From NCBI GenBank assembly GCA_024762535.1, contig JANTHG010000005.1, positions 1-41,445 on the forward strand: a stretch of 41,445 nucleotides of DNA. Reading direction: 5' to 3'. Position 1 is the first letter of the stretch, and each line of letters opens with the position of its first letter. This DNA comes from Calditrichaceae bacterium. GTDB taxonomy: Bacteria > Calditrichota > Calditrichia > Calditrichales > Calditrichaceae. Positions 4,441 to 17,838 of this stretch are shown in pieces. Under the pieces are notes generated by a model. That model saw only the letters and a program-made list of their open reading frames with translations, was not told the origin of the DNA and did not search any database. Made by a program: the position numbers and the translations under genes.

Positions 4441-4467
4441 ATAAGCCGGGCTAAAAGCCCGACTTAT
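4441..4467 (-). terminator. Hairpin terminator/attenuator between the SPW gene and the activase
   Basis: Twelve-base arms, ATAAGCCGGGCT and AGCCCGACTTAT, pair with one mismatch across a 3-nt loop. On the minus strand the hairpin is followed by a T-rich TTATTATTT stretch. It lies 30 bp past the SPW stop codon and 31 bp before the activase start. I see no convincing promoter between hairpin and activase, so it may act as a partial terminator inside one transcript. Confidence 0.6.
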
Positions 4468-4496: not shown

Positions 4497-4814
4497 TTAT
4501 TTAACATCAATTTGTTTACCCTGTAAAGCTCCAAATCCGGCAACCATTATCAAAGTTCCACTGATCACATCATTCCAGAGATAACCGAATCCAACCTGGA
4601 GGGAAGGAATAAAGGCAGCAATAATTAACCAAATGCCCACAATCATACCAAGCCAAGCCTGCCAGGATTTGTCTTTGAGAATGGTGTAACTTACATACGC
4701 CACAAGAGCGCCTATTACCAAATCATTCCATAAATTAAGAGTTGCGTTAAACTCTAAAAATGCGGAAATAAAAATCCACACGCCAAGTAAACCGTTTGTC
4801 CATGCCTGCCACAT
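4497..4814 (-). CDS. SPW-repeat small membrane protein (copy 1)
   Basis: This 105-residue protein is almost entirely hydrophobic, with about four membrane helices arranged as two copies of one unit. The repeats start WQAWTNGLLGVWIFISAF (residues 2-19) and SWQAWLGMIVGIWLIIAAF (about 50-68), each followed by a second helix. This matches the SPW-repeat family, whose biochemical function is unknown. It is a clear paralogue of the gene at 12842-13177: WQAWTNG, GIWLI.AAF and the LWND.ISG segment are shared. The SD AAAGGAG lies just before the ATG. A sigma-54-type promoter at 4862-4877 and a palindrome at 4960-4977 lie upstream. It is probably a single-gene unit with read-through into the activase. 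Confidence 0.8.
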   Translation of the reverse strand: MWQAWTNGLLGVWIFISAFLEFNATLNLWNDLVIGALVAYVSYTILKDKSWQAWLGMIVGIWLIIAAFIPSLQVGFGYLWNDVISGTLIMVAGFGALQGKQIDVK

Positions 4815-4861: not shown

Positions 4862-4877
4862 AGCATCTATTATGCCA
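4862..4877 (-). promoter_or_regulatory. Sigma-54-type promoter of SPW copy 1
   Basis: The minus strand reads TGGCATAATAGATGCT. It matches the RpoN consensus TGGCAC-N5-TTGCA with the essential GG and GC exactly 10 nt apart. The -12 GC is about 49 bp from the SPW start codon, which leaves a normal leader. The second SPW gene has an equivalent element at nearly the same distance, which strengthens the call. Confidence 0.6.
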
Positions 4878-4959
4878 AAAAATATGACATTTCATAAACA
4901 CATAAATAACAATAGCTAAGGTCGTTTCCATATCAGCAAATTTTTGAGAAACCAATAGA

Positions 4960-4977
4960 AAGTGGGAAATCCCACTT
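4960..4977. promoter_or_regulatory. 18-bp palindrome, candidate enhancer (UAS) for an NtrC-type activator
   Basis: AAGTGGGA and TCCCACTT are perfect 8-base arms separated by AA. The site is about 85 bp upstream of the -24 element of the sigma-54-type promoter, within the range used by bacterial enhancer-binding proteins. Half-site-like sequences (AGTGGGA at 13384-13390, ATGGGAA at 13330-13336) lie upstream of the second SPW promoter. Binding by the regulator at 13413-14819 is inference. Confidence 0.4.
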
Positions 4978-5060
4978 CGCGGGCAAGGATGTTTAAAATT
5001 TAAGATTGAGGAATAGCTTAAAAGAAGGGTGTGAATTGCAAGTTCGCAGTACGGAATCAT

Positions 5061-5133
5061 AAAAAAACCTTCACTGTTAGACGGATCGAATGGTAAACTT
5101 TTCGCTAAGTACTAAATCTAACAATGAAGGTTT
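5061..5133 (-). terminator. Long-stem terminator after the universal stress protein gene
   Basis: Arms at 5065-5081 and 5117-5133 are 17 bases long with one mismatch and enclose a 35-nt loop. Reading on the minus strand, the downstream arm ends GAAGGTTTTTTTATG, giving the U tract of an intrinsic terminator. It lies 7 bp past the stop codon of the UspA-like gene and closes the operon that begins at 11289. Confidence 0.7.
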
Positions 5134-5139
5134 ACAAGG

Positions 5140-5970
5140 CTATTGGCCTATGAAAAGCGGCTTGTTTCCTTCCCGTATTAAATATTTTGCATGGCTGCCA
5201 ACGATGATTTCTTTTATGGAATGCTTCGAATGTAAACCGGTAACGATTAGATCGGCCCAGTCCGCATATTTTTCTTCCAGAGCCCTGCGAAGATCCATTT
5301 CGGTGTAAGTCTTTATAATATTCTTTACATTATAAGAACGTAAATATTTTTCTGCATAATTTAAATAATATTGTGCTGTTTCCTCATCGGAACCTGCCAT
5401 CAGGATATTAACTTCAAAATTAAATCCACTGGCTAAATGGGCAAACCGTTTCATAGCACGGGCTGCAGGAAAACTGCCGTCAAAAGCAATTAAAACCTTT
5501 TCGATCGGTTTGAATTTTTTAGGAACAGCTAAAATGGGGGTAATTGAATGCTGAATGATTTTTTCCAACGAATCACCGTACCGGGAATCCGTTTCAAAAT
5601 GAAAATGAGTTCGAAGTCCCATTACAATCAGGTCATAAAAAGTGCCTTCGAATAAAACCTGTTCGCTCGGAGAGCCCTGAACTTCGGCTTCAACATGTCT
5701 GATGTTTTTTTCGCTGCAAAGCTGTTTAAATTCGGAAAGCATTTCTTCCACATGTTCTTTTGCATCGTTGATTTTTGCCGCTTCAAAACGTTTTGCCCAA
5801 TACATGCCTCCCGGAGCAATGGGGCCTACGGATTTGGTTATTTCCGGAATATCCAGTACAACTACACCGGTTACTTCGGTACGGTGTCCGCTTGCTAAAA
5901 AACAAGCATAATCGATAACTGACTTCCCGTATAAACTGGGATCTAACGGTGCTAAAATACGTCTAATCAT
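5140..5970 (-). CDS. Tandem-domain universal stress protein (UspA family)
   Basis: This 276-residue cytoplasmic protein has two Usp domains (about 1-140 and 150-276). The first begins RRILAPLDPSLYGKSVIDYA and the second EKVLIAFDGSFPAARAMKRF, the standard first strand and acidic residue of the fold. The family's ATP-binding G-2X-G-9X-G(S/T) motif is imperfect in both: GLRTHFHFETDSRYGDS in the first, GLHSKHSIKEIIVGSH in the second. ATP binding is therefore uncertain. The SD AAAGGAC fits the ATG. It starts 27 bp after the TetR gene and is probably the last gene of the efflux operon. The exact role is not inferable beyond stress response. Confidence 0.85.
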   Translation of the reverse strand: MIRRILAPLDPSLYGKSVIDYACFLASGHRTEVTGVVVLDIPEITKSVGPIAPGGMYWAKRFEAAKINDAKEHVEEMLSEFKQLCSEKNIRHVEAEVQGSPSEQVLFEGTFYDLIVMGLRTHFHFETDSRYGDSLEKIIQHSITPILAVPKKFKPIEKVLIAFDGSFPAARAMKRFAHLASGFNFEVNILMAGSDEETAQYYLNYAEKYLRSYNVKNIIKTYTEMDLRRALEEKYADWADLIVTGLHSKHSIKEIIVGSHAKYLIREGNKPLFIGQ

Positions 5971-5997
5971 TATTTTGTCCTTTCTAAAGAAACAAAA

Positions 5998-6606
5998 CTA
6001 TTTTTTTAAAATTTTTTCAAACAGAGGGAGCATACGTTTACAAAAATTTAAAGGTGCTGCTTCCTCCTGGGAAAGTGTAATCCGGATATTCATCATGACC
6101 GGCATGCCCAAATAAAGAGTTCCAATATCATCAAGAGAAAATTTATCCGTCCAGATACCGGCGGAGATACCGTCTTCGATGATATTTTGAATATATTGGA
6201 TTTGTGTGTTCAGGATATCATTAAGGCCGGATTTCAGCTCAGCATCATTCAGGTGAGCCACTTCCGCGAATAGCAGAATTGTGATACCTTTGTTTTCGAG
6301 CAAATAGGATATGTGTTTGCAGAATAGTTGTTCTAACCGTTCCTGTGCCGGTATTTCTTTTTGGACAATGGCTGCCATATCCTTTAATAAGCCGGATTTC
6401 ACATCCTCAAGAATATCCAGAAGAATATCTCTTTTACTCGCGTAATGCCGGAAAATGGTTCCTTCGCTAATCCCCACAGCTTTTGCCAGATTGCGGGTAG
6501 AAAGCTGATCTAATCCCTGACTAAAAATAATACTCAGAACAGCTTCCTTAATTTGTGCTTTACGAACAGCTGTGGGCTGCCTTTGGGTTTTCTTTTCCGG
6601 ATTCAT
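5998..6606 (-). CDS. TetR/AcrR family transcriptional repressor
   Basis: About 202 residues. The N-terminal HTH domain is typical: IKEAVLSIIFSQGLDQLSTR, then NLAKAVGISEGTIFRHYASK with the recognition helix around residues 43-55. A divergent ligand-binding C-terminal domain follows. I use the ATG at 6606, 8 nt after an AGAAAG site; a GTG three codons upstream (6615) is also possible. It is encoded 9-18 bp after the CMD-like gene, inside the efflux operon. The operon promoter at 11338-11366 has a palindrome at 11322-11333 beside its -10, so autoregulation with relief by a pump substrate is likely but inferred. Confidence 0.87.
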   Translation of the reverse strand: MNPEKKTQRQPTAVRKAQIKEAVLSIIFSQGLDQLSTRNLAKAVGISEGTIFRHYASKRDILLDILEDVKSGLLKDMAAIVQKEIPAQERLEQLFCKHISYLLENKGITILLFAEVAHLNDAELKSGLNDILNTQIQYIQNIIEDGISAGIWTDKFSLDDIGTLYLGMPVMMNIRITLSQEEAAPLNFCKRMLPLFEKILKK

Positions 6607-6624
6607 TTGATTCACTTTCTGTGC

Positions 6625-6993
6625 TTATTTATTTTCTTCTAACATCAGGTGCATCGCATCGTGTGCCGTGCTTACCACCTCCGAAGAAACTATAAAACGC
6701 GCTAAGAGAATAGCTTCCATTATTTCTTCTTTGGAAATCCCCTTGTTTCGCGCAACCTGTGTATATGTTTTGGTACAATTTTCGGAACCTGTTGCAGCTG
6801 CTACAGAAATACTCATTAGCAGTTTGTATTTTGCGGGAATCTTGTCGCCGCCCATGGCAAAATTCTTATTCTCCGCATGTTCAAATACAGCGTCTGCATG
6901 GAGACGGGACAGCTTTTGCATGACGATTGGCTGACCACCAAATTCATTTTCCATCGCTTTCAATAATTGATCGATACTCATCTTGTTTCGCAT
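6625..6993 (-). CDS. Carboxymuconolactone decarboxylase/AhpD-like protein with incomplete active site
   Basis: This 122-residue protein has the CMD fold signature GSENCTKTYTQVARNKGISKEEIMEAILLA in its middle, split here as GSENCTKTYT followed by QVARNKGISKEEIMEA. AhpD-type members have C-x2-C-x3-H at this place. Here the first Cys is Ser, the second Cys is kept and the His position is Tyr, so classic disulfide peroxidase chemistry is unlikely. SD AAGGATG precedes the ATG. It sits 32 bp after the TolC-like gene and before the TetR gene. It could be a binding or redox accessory; the substrate is unknown. Confidence 0.78.
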   Translation of the reverse strand: MRNKMSIDQLLKAMENEFGGQPIVMQKLSRLHADAVFEHAENKNFAMGGDKIPAKYKLLMSISVAAATGSENCTKTYTQVARNKGISKEEIMEAILLARFIVSSEVVSTAHDAMHLMLEENK

Positions 6994-7025
6994 AATATTA
7001 CATCCTTTTTTAGTAATTTTACAAA

Positions 7026-8402
7026 TTAATTATTTTGCCCCTTTAAAAGCTCAATATTCGCCTTAGCCAAAAAGGCATCTTTTTCGATTTTCAGAATCGC
7101 CGTTTTTACACGGGTGACATTAAGCTGGGCATCTTCCAACTGGATATTGGTAATCACGCCGTTTTTATAGCTGATTTTAGCAATTTCGTACGCTTTTTGC
7201 GCTACGCTTAAATTGGCTTTAGCCGATTTCAACTGGGCTGCGAGGGCTTCCAGTTTTACCAACGTTTGTTTCAATTCAAAACGCAGTTTAAGGGAATAGC
7301 CCTTTTCAAATTCCTGAATCCGGCTCAGGTTAGCCCTGGATTCCTGGATTTTTCCATCGGACATTTTGCCATCAAACAGAGTCATCGAAATACCAACGCC
7401 GGCTGCGTACCCCGAACGCCAGGTCTGGTCGTATGGAGGAAAGTCGATGCCATGATAGACATGATAGTTGGCAAACATAAAAAGTGTCGGTTTCTTCCCG
7501 GCCTTTTCTATAGCGCCCTGATTGTGCACTAATTTTTCTTTTATTTTAAGAGCCTGCAACTGATGATTTCCATTTAAAATCTGGTTAAGTAAAGCCTCCT
7601 CTTTTTCTGCCTGAAAGATAGCCTCTTCCCCGCTATCTACACAGCGCAGCGAATCATTCATAGGAAGAGCGAGAAGATTTTTAAGACCGGTTTCTGCGAT
7701 TTGTGATTTTCCTTTTAGGTCGGTAAGTCTGGATTTAAATTCTTCAATTTTACTCTGAAACAGTAAAATATCCAGTTCAGAACGCACGCCTTCTTCATAG
7801 GCTTTCCGGGCTAATTCCAAATGTTGATTCATTTGCCCCAGGGCATCTTTAGTAACCTGAATCACCTTATTTAGGAAAACAATATTGTAAAAAGCTGTGG
7901 TTACTTTATAAGTAATATCTGCTTTGGTCTGTTTCGTTTCCTGAATATAATTTTCTTCTAATTTTTTGGTGCTTTCATTGGCTTTGTCAATTTTACCTCC
8001 GGTGTAAAGCGGGTAAACTAAATTGATATCCGACTTAAACACATCTCTGCTTAAGGATGGATACGGCGCCATGGGACGTAAGGGTACAAATTCCCCTGCC
8101 ACGGGTCCGCTGCCACTCATTACAGGTGCTTGTACCATATGCTGTAAGAGCATGCCCGGCAGATTGTTTGTGTAAAAATATTTTGTTAAAAACGTTACCT
8201 TTGGCGCATACAGAGAATGTGTTTGCACCTGCTTTGCACGGGCAGCCTTTATTTGTGTTTCCGCCGCTTTAACCAAAGGGTTTTTATCCAATGCTATCCG
8301 AACAGCATCATCCAATTTTAATATATGATTGGCCGCAAAAATTTCCTGCGCGAAAAACATGAGCAGCACAAAAAATATCAGGCCCGATTTATTCCATTTC
8401 AT
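7026..8402 (-). CDS. TolC-family outer-membrane efflux channel
   Basis: 458 residues with a signal peptide (hydrophobic 7-23, cleavage probably near FAANH). LKLDDAVRIALDKNPLVKAAETQIKAA is the usual start of the outer-membrane efflux protein domain. Long helical repeats follow, with the second-repeat hallmark YEIAKISYKNGVITNIQLEDAQ near the C-terminus. It forms the outer-membrane exit duct of a tripartite exporter. Its ATG overlaps the ABC-2 permease stop as ATGA, with the SD GGAGGTAAATTC inside the permease gene, so the two are translationally coupled. Neighbours supply the adaptor and the inner-membrane permease. Confidence 0.9.
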   Translation of the reverse strand: MKWNKSGLIFFVLLMFFAQEIFAANHILKLDDAVRIALDKNPLVKAAETQIKAARAKQVQTHSLYAPKVTFLTKYFYTNNLPGMLLQHMVQAPVMSGSGPVAGEFVPLRPMAPYPSLSRDVFKSDINLVYPLYTGGKIDKANESTKKLEENYIQETKQTKADITYKVTTAFYNIVFLNKVIQVTKDALGQMNQHLELARKAYEEGVRSELDILLFQSKIEEFKSRLTDLKGKSQIAETGLKNLLALPMNDSLRCVDSGEEAIFQAEKEEALLNQILNGNHQLQALKIKEKLVHNQGAIEKAGKKPTLFMFANYHVYHGIDFPPYDQTWRSGYAAGVGISMTLFDGKMSDGKIQESRANLSRIQEFEKGYSLKLRFELKQTLVKLEALAAQLKSAKANLSVAQKAYEIAKISYKNGVITNIQLEDAQLNVTRVKTAILKIEKDAFLAKANIELLKGQNN

Positions 8403-9598
8403 GAATTTACCTCCAAATTCAAATCATTTTGTTTCGAAGGAATCTGAAACTTTTTCCTTTCAAATGATCCGATGATAATCGAAATTGCGGAAAGTGTTAA
8501 GAAACCTGCCGTAAATTTTAAAAGCGTCTTGATTGGCTGAACAACTTCTCTTAAGGGAAGATGGTGATTAAACACGCCATAAATAGCCTGAAGATAATAG
8601 CGCAATGGGAACCAGCCTCCGGCCATTTTTGGAAAATGTGCCATCTGTTCCAATGGAACCAGAAATCCGGAATACATAAAGGCCGGAAAGACAATCACGG
8701 TAACGATTGCGATAAGCGCAACTGAATTATCAATGTTCAGCGTCAGAAACAAAGCGATACTTTGCATAGCGAGAACAAATAAAAATATAATGCCCACCAC
8801 ATTCCATATGTTCGGTGGTATCGGCACAGAGAATAAATACATCGTAGTAAAGAATGCCAGAGAAATTGCTGTACCTACAATCACCCAGGATGAAAGAATA
8901 GGAATCAGAGTCGGTTTGAGCGGCATTTGACGTGCGCGCTTAATTTCCGGGAAGAGATTCTCCAACAAGCGGTGGCTGGTACGCAGCCCCAAAATAATAA
9001 TTACCATGGAAACAATTTGCATGGCCAGGCCCATAAAAGCCGGCAACATTGAAGATTCCATATTCATCGTCGGTGAATAATAGACGCGCTCACTAACCAT
9101 TAACAACGGCGCTTTGGCATGGCGAACATTTGGAATAGCTCCAAGGTCTTCTACGGGAACATGCATGGCATATTGATTATTAACCGTCATCACAACCCGG
9201 TTTAAACCGCCTAACGCCAACTTGGGAATGATTGGATTTGCAGTACCGTTTAATACCGCAAGAATTCGCACATTCCGTTTATTCAAAATATCTTTATACG
9301 CATCATGCGGAATAACAACACCTAGGTCAACTTTACCTTGGTCCACCAGTTTTTGTAAGGCAAGATAATCCGTTGGATGATGTTCTACCTTAAACAGGCT
9401 GGATGCCTGAATATTAAAAGAAAGTGCCCTACTTAAAGCGGAAAAATCTTCGTCACAAATGGCTGTACGGATAGCTCTGGGTTCGCTTTTATAGTACATA
9501 CCCGCCATCATGCTAAAAAAGAACAGTAAGGCCGCCGAAATAATAATTGTTCTGAAAAGCAGAACAACGATACGCGGTTTTGGTTTTGGGGAATTCAT
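8399..9598 (-). CDS. ABC-2 type inner-membrane permease (YhhJ/YhgE-like)
   Basis: 399 residues. One N-terminal membrane helix (about 12-31) is followed by an extracytoplasmic domain of roughly 160 residues and then about five C-terminal helices, the ABC2_membrane_3 layout. It has the family's PAFMYSGFLVPLEQMAHFP segment before the final helices. It should move a drug, lipid or polysaccharide-like substrate across the inner membrane together with the adjacent adaptor and TolC-like channel. The SD AGGAGG lies within the upstream HlyD gene and the genes overlap by 4 bp. There is no ATPase gene in the cluster, and this protein has no Walker motifs. Confidence 0.87.
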   Translation of the reverse strand: MNSPKPKPRIVVLLFRTIIISAALLFFFSMMAGMYYKSEPRAIRTAICDEDFSALSRALSFNIQASSLFKVEHHPTDYLALQKLVDQGKVDLGVVIPHDAYKDILNKRNVRILAVLNGTANPIIPKLALGGLNRVVMTVNNQYAMHVPVEDLGAIPNVRHAKAPLLMVSERVYYSPTMNMESSMLPAFMGLAMQIVSMVIIILGLRTSHRLLENLFPEIKRARQMPLKPTLIPILSSWVIVGTAISLAFFTTMYLFSVPIPPNIWNVVGIIFLFVLAMQSIALFLTLNIDNSVALIAIVTVIVFPAFMYSGFLVPLEQMAHFPKMAGGWFPLRYYLQAIYGVFNHHLPLREVVQPIKTLLKFTAGFLTLSAISIIIGSFERKKFQIPSKQNDLNLEVNS

Positions 9599-10386
9599 TC
9601 TGCTTTACCTCCTGCATCCTGCGGATTCAATTCCAAATACACATAAATGCCGGGTTTGCATAATTCCTTATGATCCAAGATTTTCATTTTTACAGAGAAC
9701 GAACGAACATCCCGCTGGTCACGAAGGGTGGTAGGGGTTTTAGTGGCAAAATCAGCCATGGGCATAATTTGAATGACCTTTGCCGAGATTATATGTTTAC
9801 TACCGGCGGTAGAAATTTTAAAAACTTTACCCAGGCTAATTTGGTCTAAATAGGATTCCGGAATGCTAAACCGTGCCCAGGTTGCTGTTGTGTCGGTAAC
9901 AATTACTACCGGCATACCCGGCGGCATCATTTGCCCCACTTCGAGAATGCGCACATTAACAATTCCGTCAATCGGACTAACGATACTCATATCTTCCAAA
10001 CGCGTATTTAAGGCGGCCAATTTGCTGGTTACCACATTATATGCTGTTTCAATTTCATCCAGTTTTTGCTGTGGAACCGCCCCTGCTTTATAAAGATTCT
10101 GTACCCGTTTACGGTTCACATTAATATTTTTCAACTGGGATTTAAGTGCATTGATATTGGCAGAAAGTTCACGTTTATCTAATTCCGCAACCACCTGGCC
10201 GGCCTTTACCTCGTCTCCTTCGTCCACATTAATGGCAATAATTTTACCGGGCATACGGGTCGTTACGTTAAACTGTGTATTTTCGATATATCCCATAAAT
10301 TCGGGTTTCTTCGGCGTCTCGTTCTGAGAGCAGGCGCTTAATATGAGTAAAATAAACAAGCTTATTATTAAATATTGTTTGTGCAC
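9595..10386 (-). CDS. HlyD-family membrane fusion (periplasmic adaptor) lipoprotein
   Basis: 263 residues starting with GTG at 10386; the SD GGAG lies 6 nt upstream. The signal peptide ends in the lipobox LSAC with Cys19, so the protein is probably lipid-anchored. The biotinyl-lipoyl-like hairpin is evident: VTTRMPGKIIAINVDEGDEV KAGQVVAELD, and later MSIVSPIDGIVNVRILEVGQ MMPPGMPVV. A short coiled-coil hairpin (about 75-125) lies between them. It links the ABC-2 permease to the TolC-like channel. It is the second gene of the operon, 12 bp after the barrel protein gene. Confidence 0.9.
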   Translation of the reverse strand: MHKQYLIISLFILLILSACSQNETPKKPEFMGYIENTQFNVTTRMPGKIIAINVDEGDEVKAGQVVAELDKRELSANINALKSQLKNINVNRKRVQNLYKAGAVPQQKLDEIETAYNVVTSKLAALNTRLEDMSIVSPIDGIVNVRILEVGQMMPPGMPVVIVTDTTATWARFSIPESYLDQISLGKVFKISTAGSKHIISAKVIQIMPMADFATKTPTTLRDQRDVRSFSVKMKILDHKELCKPGIYVYLELNPQDAGGKAE

Positions 10387-10398
10387 GGGAATCTCCTT

Positions 10399-11289
10399 TT
10401 AATCGTTTAATCCAAATATTTTGTCGAATTGCAATTGTACAGCATAGCTGGAAAACCAGCCGTCATTTTGATAAATCGTATAGGGAATACCAATACGGAA
10501 AAATATTTCTTTACTGTATTTATAACTGAATCCTAATAAAAATTGTATGCGGAAATCATCGGAATATACAATCTTCCTTCCGCTCATTTCGTTTTTAAAC
10601 TGTTTGCTTACGGCAAAGCCTGTTTCCGATTGAAAATCACCAAATGTGCTTTGATATGATTTTTGCAGCAAAGCATAAACACCCGCAGCGTCGCCAAGCT
10701 CTGTATTATTATTATCAGTACCCCGGTAACGGTAAAAAACCGAATAGACAATATCATATGAATCTATTAAAAAGATGCCGTTTAGTTCAGGTTGAATTTG
10801 CCAGGCGCCGGTACCCAAAGGATATTCCGTCGGCTTTAAGTTCTTATTTTCTCCGGTTGGGAAAATAACCGCGATCTTTGCACTCAGTGCAGAAGAAGTG
10901 GATTGAGATTTCCAAATCCGGTAGAAACCGCCCCATTCCAGGTCGCCAAAGCCCTTGGCACTCTGGTTAAGATTAAGAGAATAATGATGAATGAATAAAA
11001 ACGGAACACTCAGATAGGTGTTAAAATTATCTGCCACTCCATATTCGGCAAATACCTGCCAGGCCGCCTCGTTGAGAATGGTGTTATCCGGCAGATCGAC
11101 CATCTTACCGTTGGTCATATCTTTCATTTTCATATATTGCGGAAAGCTTCCCTGAAACGAAATATAGGTTTTATGAGACCCGATTGTATTGGGCTGAAGG
11201 CCAAATACAGATCGATTATCCTGTGCCTGCAATACCGTAAAAACAGACAGGGTCAATAGAAATAATTTAGTTATTCTGCTTATGTGCAT
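10399..11289 (-). CDS. Putative outer-membrane beta-barrel protein, first gene of the efflux operon
   Basis: 296 residues with a signal peptide (about 1-22, cleavage near LQAQD). The rest alternates aromatic and polar residues in strand-like segments such as YKYSKEIFFRIGIPYTIYQ, and ends in an aromatic-rich strand. It resembles the uncharacterised transporter-like barrel proteins found beside exporters, but I cannot name a family with confidence. The ATG has an excellent SD, AAAGGAGTTTTGA. It is directly behind the operon promoter. It may form an additional outer-membrane pore or a substrate-binding barrel for the tripartite pump. Confidence 0.7.
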   Translation of the reverse strand: MHISRITKLFLLTLSVFTVLQAQDNRSVFGLQPNTIGSHKTYISFQGSFPQYMKMKDMTNGKMVDLPDNTILNEAAWQVFAEYGVADNFNTYLSVPFLFIHHYSLNLNQSAKGFGDLEWGGFYRIWKSQSTSSALSAKIAVIFPTGENKNLKPTEYPLGTGAWQIQPELNGIFLIDSYDIVYSVFYRYRGTDNNNTELGDAAGVYALLQKSYQSTFGDFQSETGFAVSKQFKNEMSGRKIVYSDDFRIQFLLGFSYKYSKEIFFRIGIPYTIYQNDGWFSSYAVQLQFDKIFGLND

Positions 11290-11321
11290 TCAAAACTCCT
11301 TTCAGCAGATTTATTGTTAGC

Positions 11322-11333
11322 AAGTGATTACTT
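11322..11333. promoter_or_regulatory. Palindromic operator, probable TetR site
   Basis: AAGT and ACTT arms surround GATT. In transcript direction the site lies 4 bp after the -10 hexamer, over the expected transcription start. A repressor bound here would block initiation. The only local DNA-binding protein of the right type is the TetR-family product of the same operon, so the match is inferred from context. Confidence 0.5.
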
Positions 11334-11337
11334 ACAT

Positions 11338-11366
11338 AATATACTGAGATAAATTCTTTTAGTCAA
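11338..11366 (-). promoter_or_regulatory. Sigma-70 promoter of the efflux operon
   Basis: On the minus strand, TTGACT (-35, 11366-11361) and TATATT (-10, 11343-11338) are separated by exactly 17 bp. The expected start is about 40 bp before the first ATG at 11289. The palindrome at 11322-11333 overlaps the start region. Confidence 0.7.
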
Positions 11367-11543
11367 CTCCAAGTTAACATGCAATCTAATTCCTTCATAA
11401 ATACGCACACCATTGAAACATTTTTTTTTATTCACCAATAGAGAAAACATATCCCTCTGCCCTGGTACGGTGTGTTATTTTTTTATTGAGTACTATTAGT
11501 ATTCGGTTAAATTCTCGTAAACCACATACAAGAAAAAAGAACC

Positions 11544-11631
11544 TTACTTTTTGTCTGGCCAAAAAGTAACAAAAAGGCCAGGGCGAAATTTAACTCGTCC
11601 CGAAACTCGGGACTCAAACAGAAATTTCGCC
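11544..11631. repeat. Compound inverted repeat (three nested or adjacent hairpins)
   Basis: Three perfect inverted repeats occur in 88 bp. TTACTTTTT/AAAAAGTAA are at 11544-11552 and 11561-11569. GGCGAAATTT/AAATTTCGCC are at 11582-11591 and 11622-11631. Inside the latter, GTCCCGA/TCGGGAC are at 11597-11603 and 11607-11613. GGCC also recurs in the first loop and the linker. The structure resembles dispersed palindromic intergenic repeats rather than a simple terminator, because no U tract follows. Only one copy is in the window. Confidence 0.6.
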
Positions 11632-11742
11632 ATAAGCTAAGCTTCTTTCAAGTCCTTCATTTGGTCTTGGTTTGAAAAGTTGACATTTTAATCGGACGAT
11701 AAAAGAATGTTTCTTCAAATTATCCCATGCCTGCCAGATTGA

Positions 11743-12282
11743 TCAGTCAAAATCGAGCAGTGCGGACATCTTTTCTACTAATCCGTCATCTATTTGATGA
11801 TGATACAAAACCGGTGCCCTGAACATGGGATTTTTTCCGCGTGCATTTACGGGAATCAACAATTGAAAATTATCGGAAAAATCTTCGAAATCAATTAAAA
11901 TGGGGATCTCGAGATTAAAACTTAAACAGGCATGTAAAGATGAATAATAATCGATTGATTTAAACAAAGGCAAATAATCTTTAATATCTTCCCTGTTTAA
12001 ATAGGTTATAACTTTTAATTCCTTAAGTTTGTTATCATCAATGGCAATCTTGGTCTGATATACTAATGTTTTGCCTTTTCTAAAGCGTACAAATTTTGTG
12101 TTTGAGTCCAACTCATAAGTATATGCCGGCCGGCCGATAATTACGCCATCGATTCTATGATTTTTTAATTCCGATAAAACCATACCTGCGCTGGGCATCG
12201 CAATAAAATTAATTTCGGGCAACTGTTCCTGAAGTTTTAGAATATAAGGTTCCATAGTTGGACAATATGCGATTGAAGTCAT
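11743..12282 (-). CDS. Cytosolic solute-binding-like protein, unknown function
   Basis: 179 residues. I start at the ATG at 12282 because AAGGGATTACAA precedes it; a longer frame to 12378 would overlap the previous gene by 71 bp and has a basic, unrelated leader. There is no signal peptide. The sequence opens MTSIAYCPTMEPYILKLQEQ, then contains IDGVIIGRPAYTYEL and KTLVYQTKIAIDDNKLKELKV, an alternating alpha/beta pattern reminiscent of half a type 2 periplasmic-binding fold. This is a fold impression only. It follows the EIIA-like gene by 25 bp and is probably co-transcribed. It could be a sensor domain protein of the same signalling unit. Confidence 0.6.
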   Translation of the reverse strand: MTSIAYCPTMEPYILKLQEQLPEINFIAMPSAGMVLSELKNHRIDGVIIGRPAYTYELDSNTKFVRFRKGKTLVYQTKIAIDDNKLKELKVITYLNREDIKDYLPLFKSIDYYSSLHACLSFNLEIPILIDFEDFSDNFQLLIPVNARGKNPMFRAPVLYHHQIDDGLVEKMSALLDFD

Positions 12283-12307
12283 TTGTAATCCCTTCCATTT
12301 TGGTTTA

Positions 12308-12760
12308 TTAAAGTTCGTTAAAAATCCGGAATATTTCCGTTTTTGTTTTCGCACGACGTATTTTTTCGGCCTGCTCATGTTGGCATAAAAAACGCTTCAA
12401 TTTAAGTAATGCATCTGCCAAACTGTTATCCATCTCTTCAGGAACGGCAAGAAGAGAAACCAGATCAATAGGCTTTTTATGTTTTGAATAATAGCCAATT
12501 CCTTCATCAAAACGGCCAAAAATAAATAAGGGCTCGCTAATCGAATTGGTAACCGCATAAAAAGAAATATTGCAACACCCTCCTACAACCGAATCGTAAA
12601 GTTCGGAATCTACAACTACTTGTGCAAACTCGGAGGGATTGATGACACCGGGGTTATTGATAGCAAGATTAATCATAACCCGTAAAGCGCTTAATTCCGA
12701 ATGAGCCTTTAGACCGAGATGAATATTCTCTAAACGAAGCCAATTTATTATACGTTCCAT
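12308..12760 (-). CDS. PTS EIIA (PtsN-like) domain protein lacking the phosphorylated histidine
   Basis: 150 residues. The C-terminal two thirds follow the EIIA-Ntr/fructose-type pattern: EPLFIFGRFDEGIGYYSKHK, then KPIDLVSLLAVPEE, then a helix with LADALLKLKRFL and a final TKTEIFRIFNEL. In the family the active His lies in GNGIAIPHAR just before this; here the aligned stretch is GGCCNISFYAV, with no His. A regulatory, non-phosphorylated role is likely. The ribosome site is modest (TGGGGC). The gene starts 18 bp after a strong terminator hairpin, with no room for a normal promoter, so it probably depends on read-through from the SPW promoter. Confidence 0.68.
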   Translation of the reverse strand: MERIINWLRLENIHLGLKAHSELSALRVMINLAINNPGVINPSEFAQVVVDSELYDSVVGGCCNISFYAVTNSISEPLFIFGRFDEGIGYYSKHKKPIDLVSLLAVPEEMDNSLADALLKLKRFLCQHEQAEKIRRAKTKTEIFRIFNEL

Positions 12761-12778
12761 ATTTGCCCCAGGTATATC

Positions 12779-12808
12779 AAAAAACCGGGCGCGAAACCCG
12801 GTTTTTTT
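12779..12808. terminator. Bidirectional-looking intrinsic terminator after SPW copy 2
   Basis: AAAAAACCGGG (12779-12789) pairs perfectly with CCCGGTTTTTT (12797-12807) around a 7-nt loop, giving an 11-bp stem with A and T tracts at its feet on both strands. It lies 34 bp past the SPW stop codon on the minus strand. As in copy 1, a gene follows immediately, so it may work as an attenuator. Confidence 0.8.
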
Positions 12809-12841
12809 GAACCGTTTATCAACTGCTTTTGTTACTGGTGG

Positions 12842-13177
12842 TTAATGCGCCGGTTGATGCGTTGTATGGTGCGTTTCACCGGAAGAAAGCGCAGCAAAAC
12901 CGGCTGTAGCTATCAATATTCCACTAATCAGATCATTCCAAAGATTTCCAGAATGCATTTGCAATGCCGGAATAAAAGCAGCTACGATCAACCACAAACC
13001 CATAATGCCTGCCAGCCATCCTTGCCATGATTTTTTACTAATCATGCCGAACCCGGCGACCGCTACGATAATACCCACGATTAAGTTATTCCACATATTA
13101 CCAGTTGCTGGCATGGGTAAAAAGGCTGCGATTATTAGCCAGATCCCCAAAACTCCGTTAGTCCATGCTTGCCACAT
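12842..13177 (-). CDS. SPW-repeat small membrane protein (copy 2)
   Basis: 111 residues, four predicted membrane helices in two repeat units: WQAWTNGVLGIWLIIAAF (2-19) and SWQGWLAGIMGLWLIVAAF (about 49-67). The tail is short, soluble and His-rich (ETHHTTHQPAH). That tail is missing in the copy at 4497-4814, otherwise the two proteins align throughout. It belongs to the SPW-repeat family of unknown function. SD AAAGGAGG precedes the ATG. A sigma-54-type promoter lies 51 bp upstream and the NtrC-type regulator gene ends 235 bp upstream, which makes it a natural candidate target. The His tail could bind a metal; this is a guess. Confidence 0.82.
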   Translation of the reverse strand: MWQAWTNGVLGIWLIIAAFLPMPATGNMWNNLIVGIIVAVAGFGMISKKSWQGWLAGIMGLWLIVAAFIPALQMHSGNLWNDLISGILIATAGFAALSSGETHHTTHQPAH

Positions 13178-13227
13178 TTTAGACCTCCTTTATTTAGTTG
13201 AACCCTGTCGTTTTCAATTTTAACTAT

Positions 13228-13243
13228 TACAAAGGATGTGCCA
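13228..13243 (-). promoter_or_regulatory. Sigma-54-type promoter of SPW copy 2
   Basis: The minus strand reads TGGCACATCCTTTGTA, a perfect TGGCAC -24 element with a -12 element of TTGT instead of TTGC at the correct spacing. It lies about 50 bp from the start codon. The intergenic region separates it from the sigma-54-dependent activator gene. Confidence 0.65.
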
Positions 13244-13412
13244 AAATATATTAACAGGCATTAACTTATTGAAAAACAATAATTAACATTGATAAAAATT
13301 AATATAAGAAATATGTGTATCAAACTAAAATGGGAAGCAGGATTTCACAGTAAAATCAGATTAAATTTCTATGCCCTGCAAACAGTGGGATGGAACTGCG
13401 CAATGAAATTTC

Positions 13413-14819
13413 TCAGTGTTTAAAATTTTCGATGTTTACATTATGTTTCTTAATCAAATTCTGAATCTGACGCCGGTCGTAACCGCTTTTCTCAGCCGCA
13501 TGAGAAATATTGCCGGATGTAGATTTCAGTAAACGTTTTAAAAAATCGTATTCAATTTCCCGCAAAATATTTGCCGTTCGTCGTTGTTTTTCCTGTTGTA
13601 ATTCTTCTTTTGTTTCCGCCTTTTTAACAAGACCTGTTTTAATCTCTTCCGGCAGGTTATTAATTCCAACGATTCCTTCTTTGGCAAAGATGATGGCCTG
13701 TTGAATTACATTTTCCAGTTCGCGCACATTACCCGGCCAGGGATATCGTGTCAGGGCTTCCATCGCATCATCGGAAACGGATAAGTTATGAGCACCTTCC
13801 ACATTCAACTGTTGATGTTTATCTATAAAATAACGAACCAAAACCGGGATATCTTCTTTACGATCCTTCAGAGGGGGGATTTGAATGAATACAACTTTTA
13901 AACGATAGAATAAATCCTGACGAAAACGGCCTTCTTTAACTTCCCGCGCCAAATCACGGTTTGTTGCCGCCACAATGCGGACATCGGTTTGTAAATATTG
14001 GGTTCCCCCTACCCGGGTAAAGCGCTGGTTTTCCAGAATATGTAATAATTTTACCTGTAACTCTAAGGGCAGCTCGCCAATTTCATCTAAAAAAAGAGTG
14101 CCGCCACTGGCCATTTCAAACTTCCCTTTACGCGTCTGAACCGCTCCGGTAAACGCACCTTTTTCATGACCGAACAATTCGCTTTCCATCAATTCCTTAG
14201 GAATAGCTCCGCAATTTATTTCGATAAAGGGTTGGTCAGCACGTGGGCTCATATAGTGAACAGAGCTGGCCACCAATTGCTTTCCGGTTCCGGATTCTCC
14301 CTGAATCAAAACAGTAGCATTCGTTTGGGCCACATCTTTAACTGTTGATAAAATGGCTTGCATGCGCGGATTGGCTGTAACAATTTCCCGCTGACCTTCG
14401 TATTTCTTAAGCCGTTCTTTTAATGTTTTATTTTCTTGCACGAGGCTTGCAAAATGAAGCGCTTTTTCGATGAGCGGCGTAAGCTCGGCCAGCTTAATCG
14501 GTTTTAAGATATAATCGAAAGCGCCCAGTTTCATGGCGTTAACAGCATTTTCTACAGTGCCAAATGCTGTGATAATAATAATGGGAATTTGTTTAAAATG
14601 CTCTTTAACATATTCCAGTAGCTGCAAACCGTTTACTTTACCGGGCATTTTTAAATCGGTTATCACAAGATTAATTACTTCATTTTGAAGATGCTGCTGT
14701 GCTTCTTCTCCGCTCTTTGCCAAAAACACAGAATACTTTTGTTGCAGATTAATTTTAAGCACTTTGCGAATCTTTTCTTCATCGTCAACAATCAAAATAC
14801 TCGGTCTGTCAGGATTCAT
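13413..14819 (-). CDS. NtrC-family sigma-54-dependent response regulator
   Basis: 468 residues with all three domains. The receiver domain (1-120) has acidic pocket DDE at 12-14, phosphoacceptor Asp55 in VITDLKMPG and Lys106. The AAA+ domain (about 145-385) has Walker A GESGTGKQ (174-181), GAFTGA (221-226), which contacts sigma-54, and Walker B TLFLDEIGE (241-249). A Fis-type HTH lies at about 440-465 (NISHAAEKSGYDRRQIQNLI). All residues needed for ATP hydrolysis and sigma-54 activation are present. SD GGAGATAG fits. It overlaps the kinase gene by one base (TAATG), so the kinase is the cognate partner. Likely targets are the two SPW promoters (inference). Confidence 0.95.
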   Translation of the reverse strand: MNPDRPSILIVDDEEKIRKVLKINLQQKYSVFLAKSGEEAQQHLQNEVINLVITDLKMPGKVNGLQLLEYVKEHFKQIPIIIITAFGTVENAVNAMKLGAFDYILKPIKLAELTPLIEKALHFASLVQENKTLKERLKKYEGQREIVTANPRMQAILSTVKDVAQTNATVLIQGESGTGKQLVASSVHYMSPRADQPFIEINCGAIPKELMESELFGHEKGAFTGAVQTRKGKFEMASGGTLFLDEIGELPLELQVKLLHILENQRFTRVGGTQYLQTDVRIVAATNRDLAREVKEGRFRQDLFYRLKVVFIQIPPLKDRKEDIPVLVRYFIDKHQQLNVEGAHNLSVSDDAMEALTRYPWPGNVRELENVIQQAIIFAKEGIVGINNLPEEIKTGLVKKAETKEELQQEKQRRTANILREIEYDFLKRLLKSTSGNISHAAEKSGYDRRQIQNLIKKHNVNIENFKH

Positions 14820-16963
14820 TATCTATCTCCAAAATTTTTATGATCTAACTTTTTAGAAAGCCGGATATGAAACGTTGTTTCTCCCGGTTTGGAATCCAGC
14901 GAAATCTTCCCGCCAAGGGTCTCGATTAAATGTTGCACAATGGAAAGCCCCAGCCCGGTTCCGTTTTCTTTAGTGGTAAAAAAAGGTTCAAAAACATTAT
15001 CCTTCAATTGGTCCGGAATACCAATCCCGTTATCCTTTAAATATATATGAATCGTTTTGGGCAGGATCTCAAATCGGCATTCCAGTATTCCCTGCTCAAT
15101 TGAAAAATCATCCTGCTTTTCGGCGCGCTCTTTGATTGCCGCTATCGCATTTAGCCCCAAATTCAATAATATTTGTTTTAAAATGGCTGGATCACTTATA
15201 AATGATGACCGGGGATGATTCACACTAAAACGGGTTTGCAATTTTTCTGTTTCCTGCAGAGCTAAATTCATTTCCAGATATTCAATCAGCTCTTCAGCCT
15301 GAACCGTGATAAACTCTGGCGGTTTGATGCGGGATAAATTTAGAAAATCTGTTAGTATATTATTTAGACGGTTCACCTCTTCAATAATGAACTGTTTAAG
15401 TTCCTGCTGATCCTCCCATCCGATATTGGGTTGCAATAGTGTTTCGGCTGAGGTTGAAATCGTATTGAGCGGGTTGCGGATTTCGTGCGCGATACCGGCT
15501 GTAAGCTGCCCCAGGGCCGCTAATTTTTCAAGCTGGAAATGTTCTTTAAAATGATCGTGCATTTGGCGGATTATATTATTCCGCTGAAAGGATCCGGCAA
15601 TATTACTGGCAAATATATTGTAAATTTCGATTTCATCTTCTGTATATTCCTGATTAAATTTTTTCTTAGAAAATAAAAGAATTCCTAATAGTTCCTTGTC
15701 AAAAATCAGAGGAAGGATAATCTGAATCCGTTTCTTCTCTAAATAATCATGAACCCGGGAATCCAAAGCCTGATGATCCAATTCATAAAATTCCATAGCC
15801 TTTTTGTGTTTAATTAATTCTTTAACAAAATGGCATGAAGCCGGTATCTCGGGCGCTTCTTCATCTTCATGCGCTTCTGTATATGTGCCGGCGTCATCCT
15901 CAAGATAAAAGGATGTTACGGATTCAATATAAAAATTTTTAATTAAGAATGTTTCCACCGTTTCGAAAAAAAGTTTGGGTTCGGCATAGGTTTGCAACTC
16001 TTTAAAAAGTTCCAGCGATTTCTTCCGATACTGGTGGATATCTTTATTTAGCATACGATCGAACAGTACATTCAATTTTTTTTCAAACGGACGGATCATT
16101 AGAATCAATGTAAAAATGAGGAGCCCGCTTAGGGTAAAGGAATCAATATTAAAATAGTGCACCAGACTATCTGTAATGCTTTTAATTACTACAAAATAAA
16201 CCGCCAGTGCAAAGGATGACAAAATAGTGTAGCTTAATCCGCTGCTAAGATATTTTTTAGGTCGAAATAATTTAAATTGTACAATAGCGACAAAGAAAAA
16301 TATGGCAATCAATAAAGTAACAACGGTGGATAAAAAATAGAGTGATAAAACACCATGCATAAAGGGGTGGCTGAGCTGAATAAGGATAAAGCTTAAAAAG
16401 ACGATAATCATTCCAAAGGTAAAAAACCTGGTTTGATTACGAAGGCGGATGGTACGTATTTTATGAATTTTCCCGATGAGGATCCAATTTCCCCAAATAA
16501 CATAAACCAGAGCGATGATGAGCAACAAAACAAAGCGAAAATTATTGGCAAAGCTGAACTGAAAATAATAGATATTCTTCATATCTGATAGCGATACCAG
16601 TTCAAACTGGAAATCAGGAAAGGAAAGGCTCAGGGCAAGAATGGGTAAAGCGAACACAGCTGCATAGAAAAGAGGTCTGGCCGTCCAGGGATGAAAATTT
16701 TTCGGGAAATGGTAGGCTATGATTACAAAAAAAGCAGGCGATAAAAATATTATTCGATAAAGAATCTGCCCCCAAAACATGGCGCTTGCTTCCGCCTTGC
16801 TGTTCAGGATAATCACTTCCGCAAGATTCCAAAAGGAAAAGCTAAAGATAAAGGCGGAAAACCAGCGGTTCAGCGTAGATCGTGGCGCATCCATTAATAC
16901 AATGAATGCCAGACTGAAATTCATTGTAAATGAAATTAACCCTGGGAGGGAATAGATATTCAT
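14819..16963 (-). CDS. Membrane-bound sensor histidine kinase (7TM-type N-terminus, GAF, HisKA, HATPase)
   Basis: 714 residues. About the first 250 hold seven or more membrane helices, as in HisKA_7TM kinases; a further hydrophobic pair lies near 250-290. A GAF-like domain (about 310-460) contains LPLIFDKELLGILLFSKKKF. The HisKA domain has AALGQLTAGIAHEIRNPLNT with His493. The HATPase region shows ILLNLGLNAIAAIKE, DNGIGIPDQLKDNVFEPFFT and GTGLGLSIV. It resembles PrsK-type kinases that work with NtrC-type partners. Its ATG overlaps the patatin stop as ATGA. With multiple helices and no large periplasmic domain, it probably senses a membrane or intramembrane cue. Confidence 0.93.
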   Translation of the reverse strand: MNIYSLPGLISFTMNFSLAFIVLMDAPRSTLNRWFSAFIFSFSFWNLAEVIILNSKAEASAMFWGQILYRIIFLSPAFFVIIAYHFPKNFHPWTARPLFYAAVFALPILALSLSFPDFQFELVSLSDMKNIYYFQFSFANNFRFVLLLIIALVYVIWGNWILIGKIHKIRTIRLRNQTRFFTFGMIIVFLSFILIQLSHPFMHGVLSLYFLSTVVTLLIAIFFFVAIVQFKLFRPKKYLSSGLSYTILSSFALAVYFVVIKSITDSLVHYFNIDSFTLSGLLIFTLILMIRPFEKKLNVLFDRMLNKDIHQYRKKSLELFKELQTYAEPKLFFETVETFLIKNFYIESVTSFYLEDDAGTYTEAHEDEEAPEIPASCHFVKELIKHKKAMEFYELDHQALDSRVHDYLEKKRIQIILPLIFDKELLGILLFSKKKFNQEYTEDEIEIYNIFASNIAGSFQRNNIIRQMHDHFKEHFQLEKLAALGQLTAGIAHEIRNPLNTISTSAETLLQPNIGWEDQQELKQFIIEEVNRLNNILTDFLNLSRIKPPEFITVQAEELIEYLEMNLALQETEKLQTRFSVNHPRSSFISDPAILKQILLNLGLNAIAAIKERAEKQDDFSIEQGILECRFEILPKTIHIYLKDNGIGIPDQLKDNVFEPFFTTKENGTGLGLSIVQHLIETLGGKISLDSKPGETTFHIRLSKKLDHKNFGDR

Positions 16964-17838
16964 TCCGGACTTCCGTGTTTCAATAGTTTTTCCAATTGGG
17001 GTAATGCTGCTTCTGCCGCCTCTTCCCCTGCTTTAATGATATCATCAATACTTTTTATAGCTGCCCACGAATAGTGACGCACTTTCGGCCGTATTAGCAA
17101 ATCAGCGCCTGCAAGACGTTCCTGGGTAAGATGGTACGTTACAATGTCTTCGGCCCGATAGATAATCTGAATGCCTGTGTCTAATTTACTCACATCTTCT
17201 ACACAATGAGTTACGTCCACAGCAATCACATATTGCGCACCGCGTCCTTTCACAATTTGTACCGGTATGCTATCTGAAGAAGCGCCATCTATCAAAAGCA
17301 AGCCATCGATTTCTACAGGTGGGAAAACACCCGGTATGGCAGAACTGGCCATTACAGATTTTTTTAAACTACCTTCTGTCAGCACAATTTCCCTTCCGGA
17401 AATCAAATCAGTTGCAATCGTGGCAAAATTAACCGGTAGTGTTTCAATGGGCTTATCAGGGAAGGTTTCAAATAGTTTTTCAACCAGCTTTTCATTATAG
17501 ATGGATCGTGCTTTTAAGGTCTTCAACATCGAAAAATACATTTTAAGGTTATTCAGATACTGATTAAGATGATTCATCGCTCCCGAATGTTCCGTAGAAT
17601 CAAACACTTCCATATCCAGTTCATTAAAAACCGGGCGTTTAATCAAGTCATAAATAAAATCTTCTACCGCCTCTGCATTTTGAAATGTGGCATACAGGCC
17701 TCCAATAATTGCTCCGATACTACAACCTGTAATCTGATTTATGGGTAGGTGTTCACGTTCCAGCACTTTTAGGACACCAATATGTGAAAGTCCGCGAGCA
17801 CCGCCGCCACCCAAAGCTATTCCTAATTTGCTATTCAT
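16960..17838 (-). CDS. Patatin-like phospholipase
   Basis: 292 residues, the RssA/YchK-like bacterial patatin layout. The oxyanion loop is GGGGARG (9-15), the nucleophile elbow GCSIG (38-42) contains Ser40, and the partner Asp184 is in DGA (184-186). These are the full catalytic dyad motifs. There is no signal peptide, so it acts in the cytoplasm or on the inner leaflet. The SD AAGGGA is 8 nt from the ATG. It is the first gene of an operon with the kinase and the NtrC-type regulator, coupled by a 4-bp overlap. This suggests that membrane-lipid hydrolysis and signal transduction are functionally linked. Confidence 0.9.
   Translation of the reverse strand: MNSKLGIALGGGGARGLSHIGVLKVLEREHLPINQITGCSIGAIIGGLYATFQNAEAVEDFIYDLIKRPVFNELDMEVFDSTEHSGAMNHLNQYLNNLKMYFSMLKTLKARSIYNEKLVEKLFETFPDKPIETLPVNFATIATDLISGREIVLTEGSLKKSVMASSAIPGVFPPVEIDGLLLIDGASSDSIPVQIVKGRGAQYVIAVDVTHCVEDVSKLDTGIQIIYRAEDIVTYHLTQERLAGADLLIRPKVRHYSWAAIKSIDDIIKAGEEAAEAALPQLEKLLKHGSPE

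Follow-up and report, generated by a model that had tools for sequence, protein, structure and literature searches.

Which regulatory system controls the two SPW-type membrane protein genes (family PF03779) found on a contig of a Calditrichaceae bacterium (JANTHG010000005.1, assembly GCA_024762535.1), and what do their products do for the cell? The stretch of DNA analyzed here, referred to below as the window, was 41,445 nt in length; all coordinates are window positions, and both genes, SPW1 and SPW2, were located on the minus strand. A literature search revealed neither a function nor a mode of regulation for SPW proteins, and no sigma-54 regulon of Caldithrix was found. Our analysis indicates that SPW1 and SPW2 probably constitute a small sigma-54 regulon under the adjoining two-component system, with membrane-protecting SPW proteins as its output. 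The regulatory circuit itself we infer with very good support. A previous sequence-only reading of this locus had proposed a dedicated sigma-54 regulon of SPW genes linked to a kinase/NtrC pair and a patatin, and this proposal was supported by conserved promoter elements, co-occurrence, and gene order.

SPW1 (4497..4814, ATG at 4814) encoded a four-helix membrane protein of 105 aa, and SPW2 (12842..13177, ATG at 13177) encoded one of 111 aa. Both proteins matched PF03779 (E 3e-15 and 7e-16; 56.8 and 58.9 bits, respectively, against a cut-off of 31.5) and had 55% identity with each other, which bears out their earlier assignment as SPW paralogues. The S-P-W triad, the family's namesake, was absent from this subfamily, in which AAF was found in both repeats. 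The closest relatives of the window genome within Calditrichota were metagenome-assembled genomes (MAGs) of Calditrichaceae/Calditrichia. In the phylogenetic tree, SPW1 and SPW2 grouped with different orthologues from other Calditrichota; thus, both copies predate this genus, and each has retained its promoter. A structure model of the SPW family has been described (PMC8078820). Our model of SPW2 was confident (predicted local distance difference test, pLDDT, 89.5) and consisted of two repeats of two helices. No significant match was found in PDB either by structure or by sequence, and deducing a function from the fold was therefore abandoned.

Each gene was preceded by a sigma-54 box: TGGCATAATAGATGCT (4877-4862, minus strand) was located 47 nt upstream of the ATG of SPW1, and TGGCACATCCTTTGTA (13243-13228, minus strand) was located 50 nt upstream of that of SPW2. 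The GG-N10-GC/GT signature and the near-equal distance of the boxes from the start codons (about 50 bp), both pointed out previously, were thereby confirmed. RpoN was encoded in the genome to which the window belongs (E 1.2e-59). By pattern frequency alone, the boxes were no commoner than chance: the pattern TGGCACNNNNNTTGCW with up to three mismatches had 168 matches in the window vs. 162 expected, and a box score of at least 9/12 was reached by 10% of shuffled 300-bp upstream regions. Yet, the comparison of orthologues rejects chance. In all 18 SPW upstream regions of our training set, originating from Calditrichota, Melioribacteraceae, BMS3Abin04, and one Bacteroidales MAG, a sigma-54 box of the TGGCA..N..TG type (one reading TGACA) was located 47-77 nt before the ATG. 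Among the 27 modules compared, each combining a box with upstream dyads, the element was TGGCAC-N5-TTGC, with nearly invariant -24 TGGCA and -12 TTG and with the final C often replaced by T or A. Both window boxes were kept in orthologues, and the elements, whose possible lack of conservation upstream of orthologous SPW genes had been named as an objection to the sequence-only reading, were conserved there. The boxes are lifted far above chance because they are conserved at orthologous genes and have paired dyads upstream.

The same sites can also be read as ordinary sigma-70 promoters, with TTGGCA as the -35 element, the -10 element 16-17 nt later, and GG-N10-GC as a coincidence; indeed, a consensus scan gave TTGGCA-16-TAAAAT and TTGGCA-17-TAAAGT at exactly these window positions. 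We regard this explanation as strongly disfavored, with hardly any probability left to it, since the -10-like hexamer was not conserved (2 of the 27 modules, both of them the window copies), whereas the -12 TTG was present in nearly all modules and conserved activator dyads were located upstream. An Rfam scan of the window gave no match, and an interpretation as a riboswitch or another leader RNA was dropped.

The strongest evidence for the predicted dedicated regulon is a second motif upstream of the boxes, the dyad TGNGAAAT-N4-TTTCNCA, which was not reported in the sequence-only reading. It occurred twice before almost every SPW gene; the spacing between copies was 65-71 bp, mostly 66-68, and the nearer copy ended 59-88 bp upstream of the sigma-54 box. 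Binding sites of a sigma-54 activator would be expected to have this layout, and the dyads are referred to below as putative upstream activating sequences (UAS). The proximal UAS of SPW1, CCCGCGAAGTGGGATTTCCCACT (4961..4983), had a 19-bp core ending 85 bp before the box, and the distal one, ACTGCGAACTTGCAATTCACACC (5028..5050), was 67 bp from it. For SPW2, the core of the proximal copy, ACTGTGAAATCCTGCTTCCCATT (13329..13351), ended 87 bp before the box, and the distal copy, ACTGAGAAATTTCATTGCGCAGT (13395..13417), located 66 bp from the proximal one, overlapped the stop codon of the NtrC gene; all four dyads were on the minus strand. A dyad score of at least 12/14 was reached by 17 of the 18 real training regions vs. 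0.7% of shuffled regions. A perfect palindrome upstream of SPW1, AAGTGGGATTTCCCACTT, looked like a terminator; this candidate was rejected because its symmetry was local and only the register GCGAA-N6-TTTCCCA was conserved.

A third dyad, TTAATTATTGTTTTTCAATAAGTTA (13261..13285, minus strand), was found between the UAS and the sigma-54 box of SPW2 and was partly conserved. In the form TAACNTATT-N7-AATANGTTA, starting 40-42 bp before the box, it was present in Melioribacteraceae, in window SPW2, and in genomes G037 and G188 (0-9 of 1000 shuffles were equally good), while in other lineages it was weak or absent. Its equivalents between the activator dyads and the box, seen in Melioribacteraceae and in some Calditrichota, were observed at loci L032-L035, L038, L045, and L158. 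This dyad could be a site for a bending protein or for a second regulator.

Only the training set was used to build the motif models, and held-out loci, retrieved by a search for SPW genes in 197 genomes of Ignavibacteria (the class of G098) and 198 genomes of Bacteroidales (the order of G102), were scored afterwards. The box and both dyads were found at 9 of 13 independent held-out SPW loci (at least 49% identity). In at least three of the four exceptions (L144, L148, and L149), SPW was the last gene of an operon for an outer-membrane protein (OMP), HlyD, ABC2, TolC, and a reductase, and these efflux operons were themselves preceded by a dyad pair with a CGGCAC-N5-TTGG box; in the fourth, L146, SPW followed the same reductase gene and the contig ended there. 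The layout of the module thus recurred before SPW genes of three lineages, Calditrichota, Ignavibacteria, and Bacteroidales. Loci with a distant SPW protein (less than about 45% identity) were devoid of the module; the exception was G188, which possessed the kinase, the regulator, and weakly matching sites despite a distant SPW. A Bacteroidales MAG (L037, 8296-10324) possessed four tandem SPW genes, two of them with the dyad/sigma-54 module. At L149 (7957-8240), the module was followed by an open reading frame of the membrane type (~41 aa) and then by a patatin gene; here, SPW was apparently lost from behind its promoter or exchanged for another gene.

Statements on the whole genome of the window rest on searches with two models, R1 (a sequence-only model of dyad and box) and R2 (a model of the dyad pair). 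In 39 Calditrichota genomes, R1 scored above 40 bits at 10 places, all of them SPW promoters, and every match above 37 bits in five other genomes was an SPW promoter as well. R2 recognized exactly two places in the genome of the window, the promoters of SPW1 and SPW2, and nothing at E <=0.001 in 19 control genomes lacking a full-length kinase; matches of R2 in module genomes are partly circular, as many of these sequences were used to build the model, while the absence of other or control matches is not. In Ignavibacteria, R2 additionally recognized the efflux operon and a small number of other sites. The further dyad pairs were located at L164 1068-1156, L198 2427-2516, L199 3714-3803, and L201 4395-4484, one of them upstream of a radical-SAM gene. 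As judged from these searches, the predicted sites are located near-exclusively at SPW genes, plus the efflux operon.

The likely activator was encoded directly upstream of SPW2 and on the same strand, in agreement with the earlier observation of an NtrC-type activator and a membrane kinase beside the second SPW gene. The response regulator (13413..14819, minus strand) contained a receiver, a sigma-54 AAA+ domain with GAFTGA, and a Fis-type helix-turn-helix (HTH); GAFTGA was invariant, and the phospho-acceptor Asp and HTH were conserved. The proposed sensor, a membrane histidine kinase (14819..16963, minus strand), contained HisKA_7TM, GAF-like, HisKA, and HATPase domains. Since the kinase has a seven-transmembrane (7TM) region and a cytoplasmic GAF-like domain without a large extracytoplasmic domain, its architecture suggests that the signal arises in the membrane or the cytoplasm. 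In the regulator tree, a fully supported branch set all dyad-associated regulators apart. Another clade, with the HTH sequence ALDMDRR instead of SGYDRRQ, was formed by related regulators that were encoded beside similar kinases, without SPW or dyads. No dyads with a score of at least 14.5 were found at the kinase operon of the window, giving no sign of autoregulation.

The dyads might serve another activator, the kinase/NtrC pair merely traveling with SPW: the regulator is a predicted, sequence-based partner of the dyads, and NtrC-type genes can act on targets located far away. The distribution of the kinase makes this very unlikely. With matches to a profile of its N-terminal 470 residues counted at above 600 bits, the kinase was present in 6 of 40 Calditrichota genomes, and these were precisely those with the module (Fisher p = 2.6e-7, uncorrected for kinship); G012 of the same phylum had only part of the kinase, at the end of a contig. 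SPW was found in each of the 11 Ignavibacteria genomes whose kinase was full-length or lay at a contig edge, and in the remaining module genomes, G099 and G236 excepted, the kinase was whole or at a contig edge. Moreover, the order kinase-regulator-SPW was kept in three phyla, and genomes having only a related regulator yielded no dyad pair. The related genomes, where the sequence-only reading had proposed looking for the box and the pair, thus showed both the recurrence of the box upstream of SPW genes and the co-occurrence of the kinase and NtrC.

The closest described circuit is PrsK/PrsR of the PEP-CTERM system, the likeness being one of kind and not of identity. It comprises a dedicated membrane histidine kinase and an NtrC-type regulator whose activator motif, repeated in some cases, lies about 63 nt before the -24/-12 box; the motif precedes mostly single-gene operons of one protein family, and the circuit was recognized from the agreement of phylogenetic profiles (Haft et al. 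2006, PMC1569441). The window kinase and regulator matched TIGR02916 and TIGR02915 over a long stretch but below the cut-offs (88 bits at a cut-off of 300 and 414 bits at a cut-off of 502.6, respectively), and no exosortase above cut-off was found in 40 Calditrichota genomes; therefore, membership in PrsK/PrsR was rejected. The PEP-CTERM motif also ends in TTTACA, whereas the motif of SPW genes is TGNGAAAT...TTTCNCA, and the targets here are SPW membrane proteins. AtoSC, ZraSR, and NtrBC are similar in the receiver, the sigma-54 AAA+ domain with GAFTGA, the Fis-type HTH, the paired activator sites, and the sigma-54 promoter, but differ in their target genes. None of the NCBIfam equivalogs reached its cut-off for the kinase or the regulator; the latter scored 467, 445, and 364 bits against AtoC, NtrC, and ZraR (cut-offs of 714, 558.6, and 760, respectively). 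The Psp response is sigma-54-controlled with effectors at the inner membrane, and its activator PspF is a single-component protein without a receiver. Compared by architecture only, the SPW circuit resembles it as a sigma-54-controlled response with effectors predicted to act at the inner membrane, but differs in possessing a receiver (Response_reg) and a kinase, and SPW proteins are not PspA/B/C.

For the circuit as a whole, we propose the following sequence of events. The boxes, the dyads with their spacing and location, and the co-occurrence with the kinase and regulator are seen in the sequence, and what we infer is that this regulator occupies the dyads, that it is phosphorylated, that the signal comes from the membrane, and that SPW proteins are protective. 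The membrane histidine kinase would respond to an alteration within or close to the inner membrane by phosphorylating the NtrC-type regulator. Before each SPW gene, an oligomer of the regulator would bind the two dyads, whose centers are separated by 65-71 bp, loop to RNA polymerase-sigma-54 at TGGCAC-N5-TTG, and open the promoter via ATP hydrolysis. SPW1 and SPW2 would then be made in bulk and would stabilize or seal the inner membrane, while the patatin may remove or remodel lipids; in Ignavibacteria, the same sites would turn on the efflux operon.

The patatin-like phospholipase gene (16960..17838, minus strand; GGGGARG, GCSIG, and DGA motifs) was the first gene of the kinase/regulator operon. 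It belonged to the kinase operon in Calditrichota, and in Ignavibacteria it was located directly behind SPW, under the same promoter. Together with the Ignavibacteria HlyD/ABC-2/TolC efflux operon, the patatin lies in the neighborhood of the regulon and, by its predicted sites, partly within it. The corresponding pump operon of the window, OMP - HlyD - ABC-2 permease - TolC - CMD - TetR - USP (5140..11289, minus strand), had no UAS, while its Ignavibacteria relatives (OMP to TolC) carried a UAS pair; the regulon would therefore include the pump there. These dyad pairs, preceding the operon OMP-HlyD-ABC2 permease-TolC(-reductase-SPW), were located at L142 2841-2929, L144 3828-3916, L148 16201-16290, L149 407-496, L197 3274-3363, and L200 5203-5293. 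No ATPase gene adjoined the ABC-2 permease gene (8399-9598) in the window.

The main rival to a membrane-stress role is drawn from this operon. The same circuit could serve specific detoxification or export, expelling a hydrophobic compound or antimicrobial via the HlyD/ABC-2/TolC pump with SPW as a pump accessory. The dyad pair before the Ignavibacteria operon, with SPW as its last gene in several loci, is consistent with such a function, as are the position of the window pump operon, with its TetR regulator, between the two SPW genes and a pump near SPW at one Bacteroidales locus. However, the pump operons of the window and of other Calditrichota were devoid of dyads, and outside Ignavibacteria, SPW was found without a pump at most module loci; we consider this role unlikely, though the least improbable of the alternatives. 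The other neighbors found across lineages were USP, FtsH, BI-1, DUF308 repeats (as in HdeD), cyclopropane-fatty-acid (CFA) synthase, and an M50 protease. Their common theme is membrane upkeep, which favors a membrane-stress response with SPW as its main output; an envelope-stress role, resting on BI-1, FtsH, DUF308, CFA synthase, USP, and patatin, is plausible.

Several facts weigh against a membrane-protecting SPW regulon controlled by this two-component system. That the regulator binds the dyads is predicted from co-occurrence and adjacency; the kinase was not found in two module-bearing drafts, G099 and G236, perhaps owing to missing contigs; and the window's own efflux operon had no dyads with a score of at least 14.5. 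The "stress" neighbors varied from lineage to lineage. Distant SPW genes in other phyla lacked the module, so the predicted control does not extend to the whole Pfam family.

Several other genes adjoined SPW1 and SPW2. Downstream of SPW2, a PTS EIIA-like protein (12308..12760, minus strand) was encoded, present only here and in L030 and probably co-transcribed with SPW2; it may provide a link to PTS-Ntr. It was followed by a protein of unknown family (11743..12378, minus strand) with about 180 aa in L030; its true start is probably internal. SPW1 was followed by a gene for a 1406-aa protein of the CoA-dehydratase-activase type (189-4409), as in L030, L036, and L042, and a hairpin at 4447-4461 may separate the two.

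We put forward tentatively, as a possibility somewhat short of probable, that these elements represent an undescribed membrane-stress response shared by Calditrichota, Ignavibacteria, and Bacteroidales, whose 7TM-GAF kinase and twin-dyad sigma-54 activator serve mainly SPW production. SPW proteins would be a new class of inner-membrane-protecting effectors with a role like that of PspA/B/C, and lipid turnover by patatin and the efflux pump would be further outputs. What is new here is a sigma-54/two-component regulon whose effector family has no assigned function. It would add a sigma-54 regulon in Calditrichota and Ignavibacteria, phyla unmentioned by a recent cross-phylum sigma-54 survey, and the motif and models R1 and R2 can be used to annotate more genomes. 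SPW proteins are present in many bacteria and archaea, and a dedicated kinase, activator, site, and promoter would turn the role of this family into a concrete, testable question.

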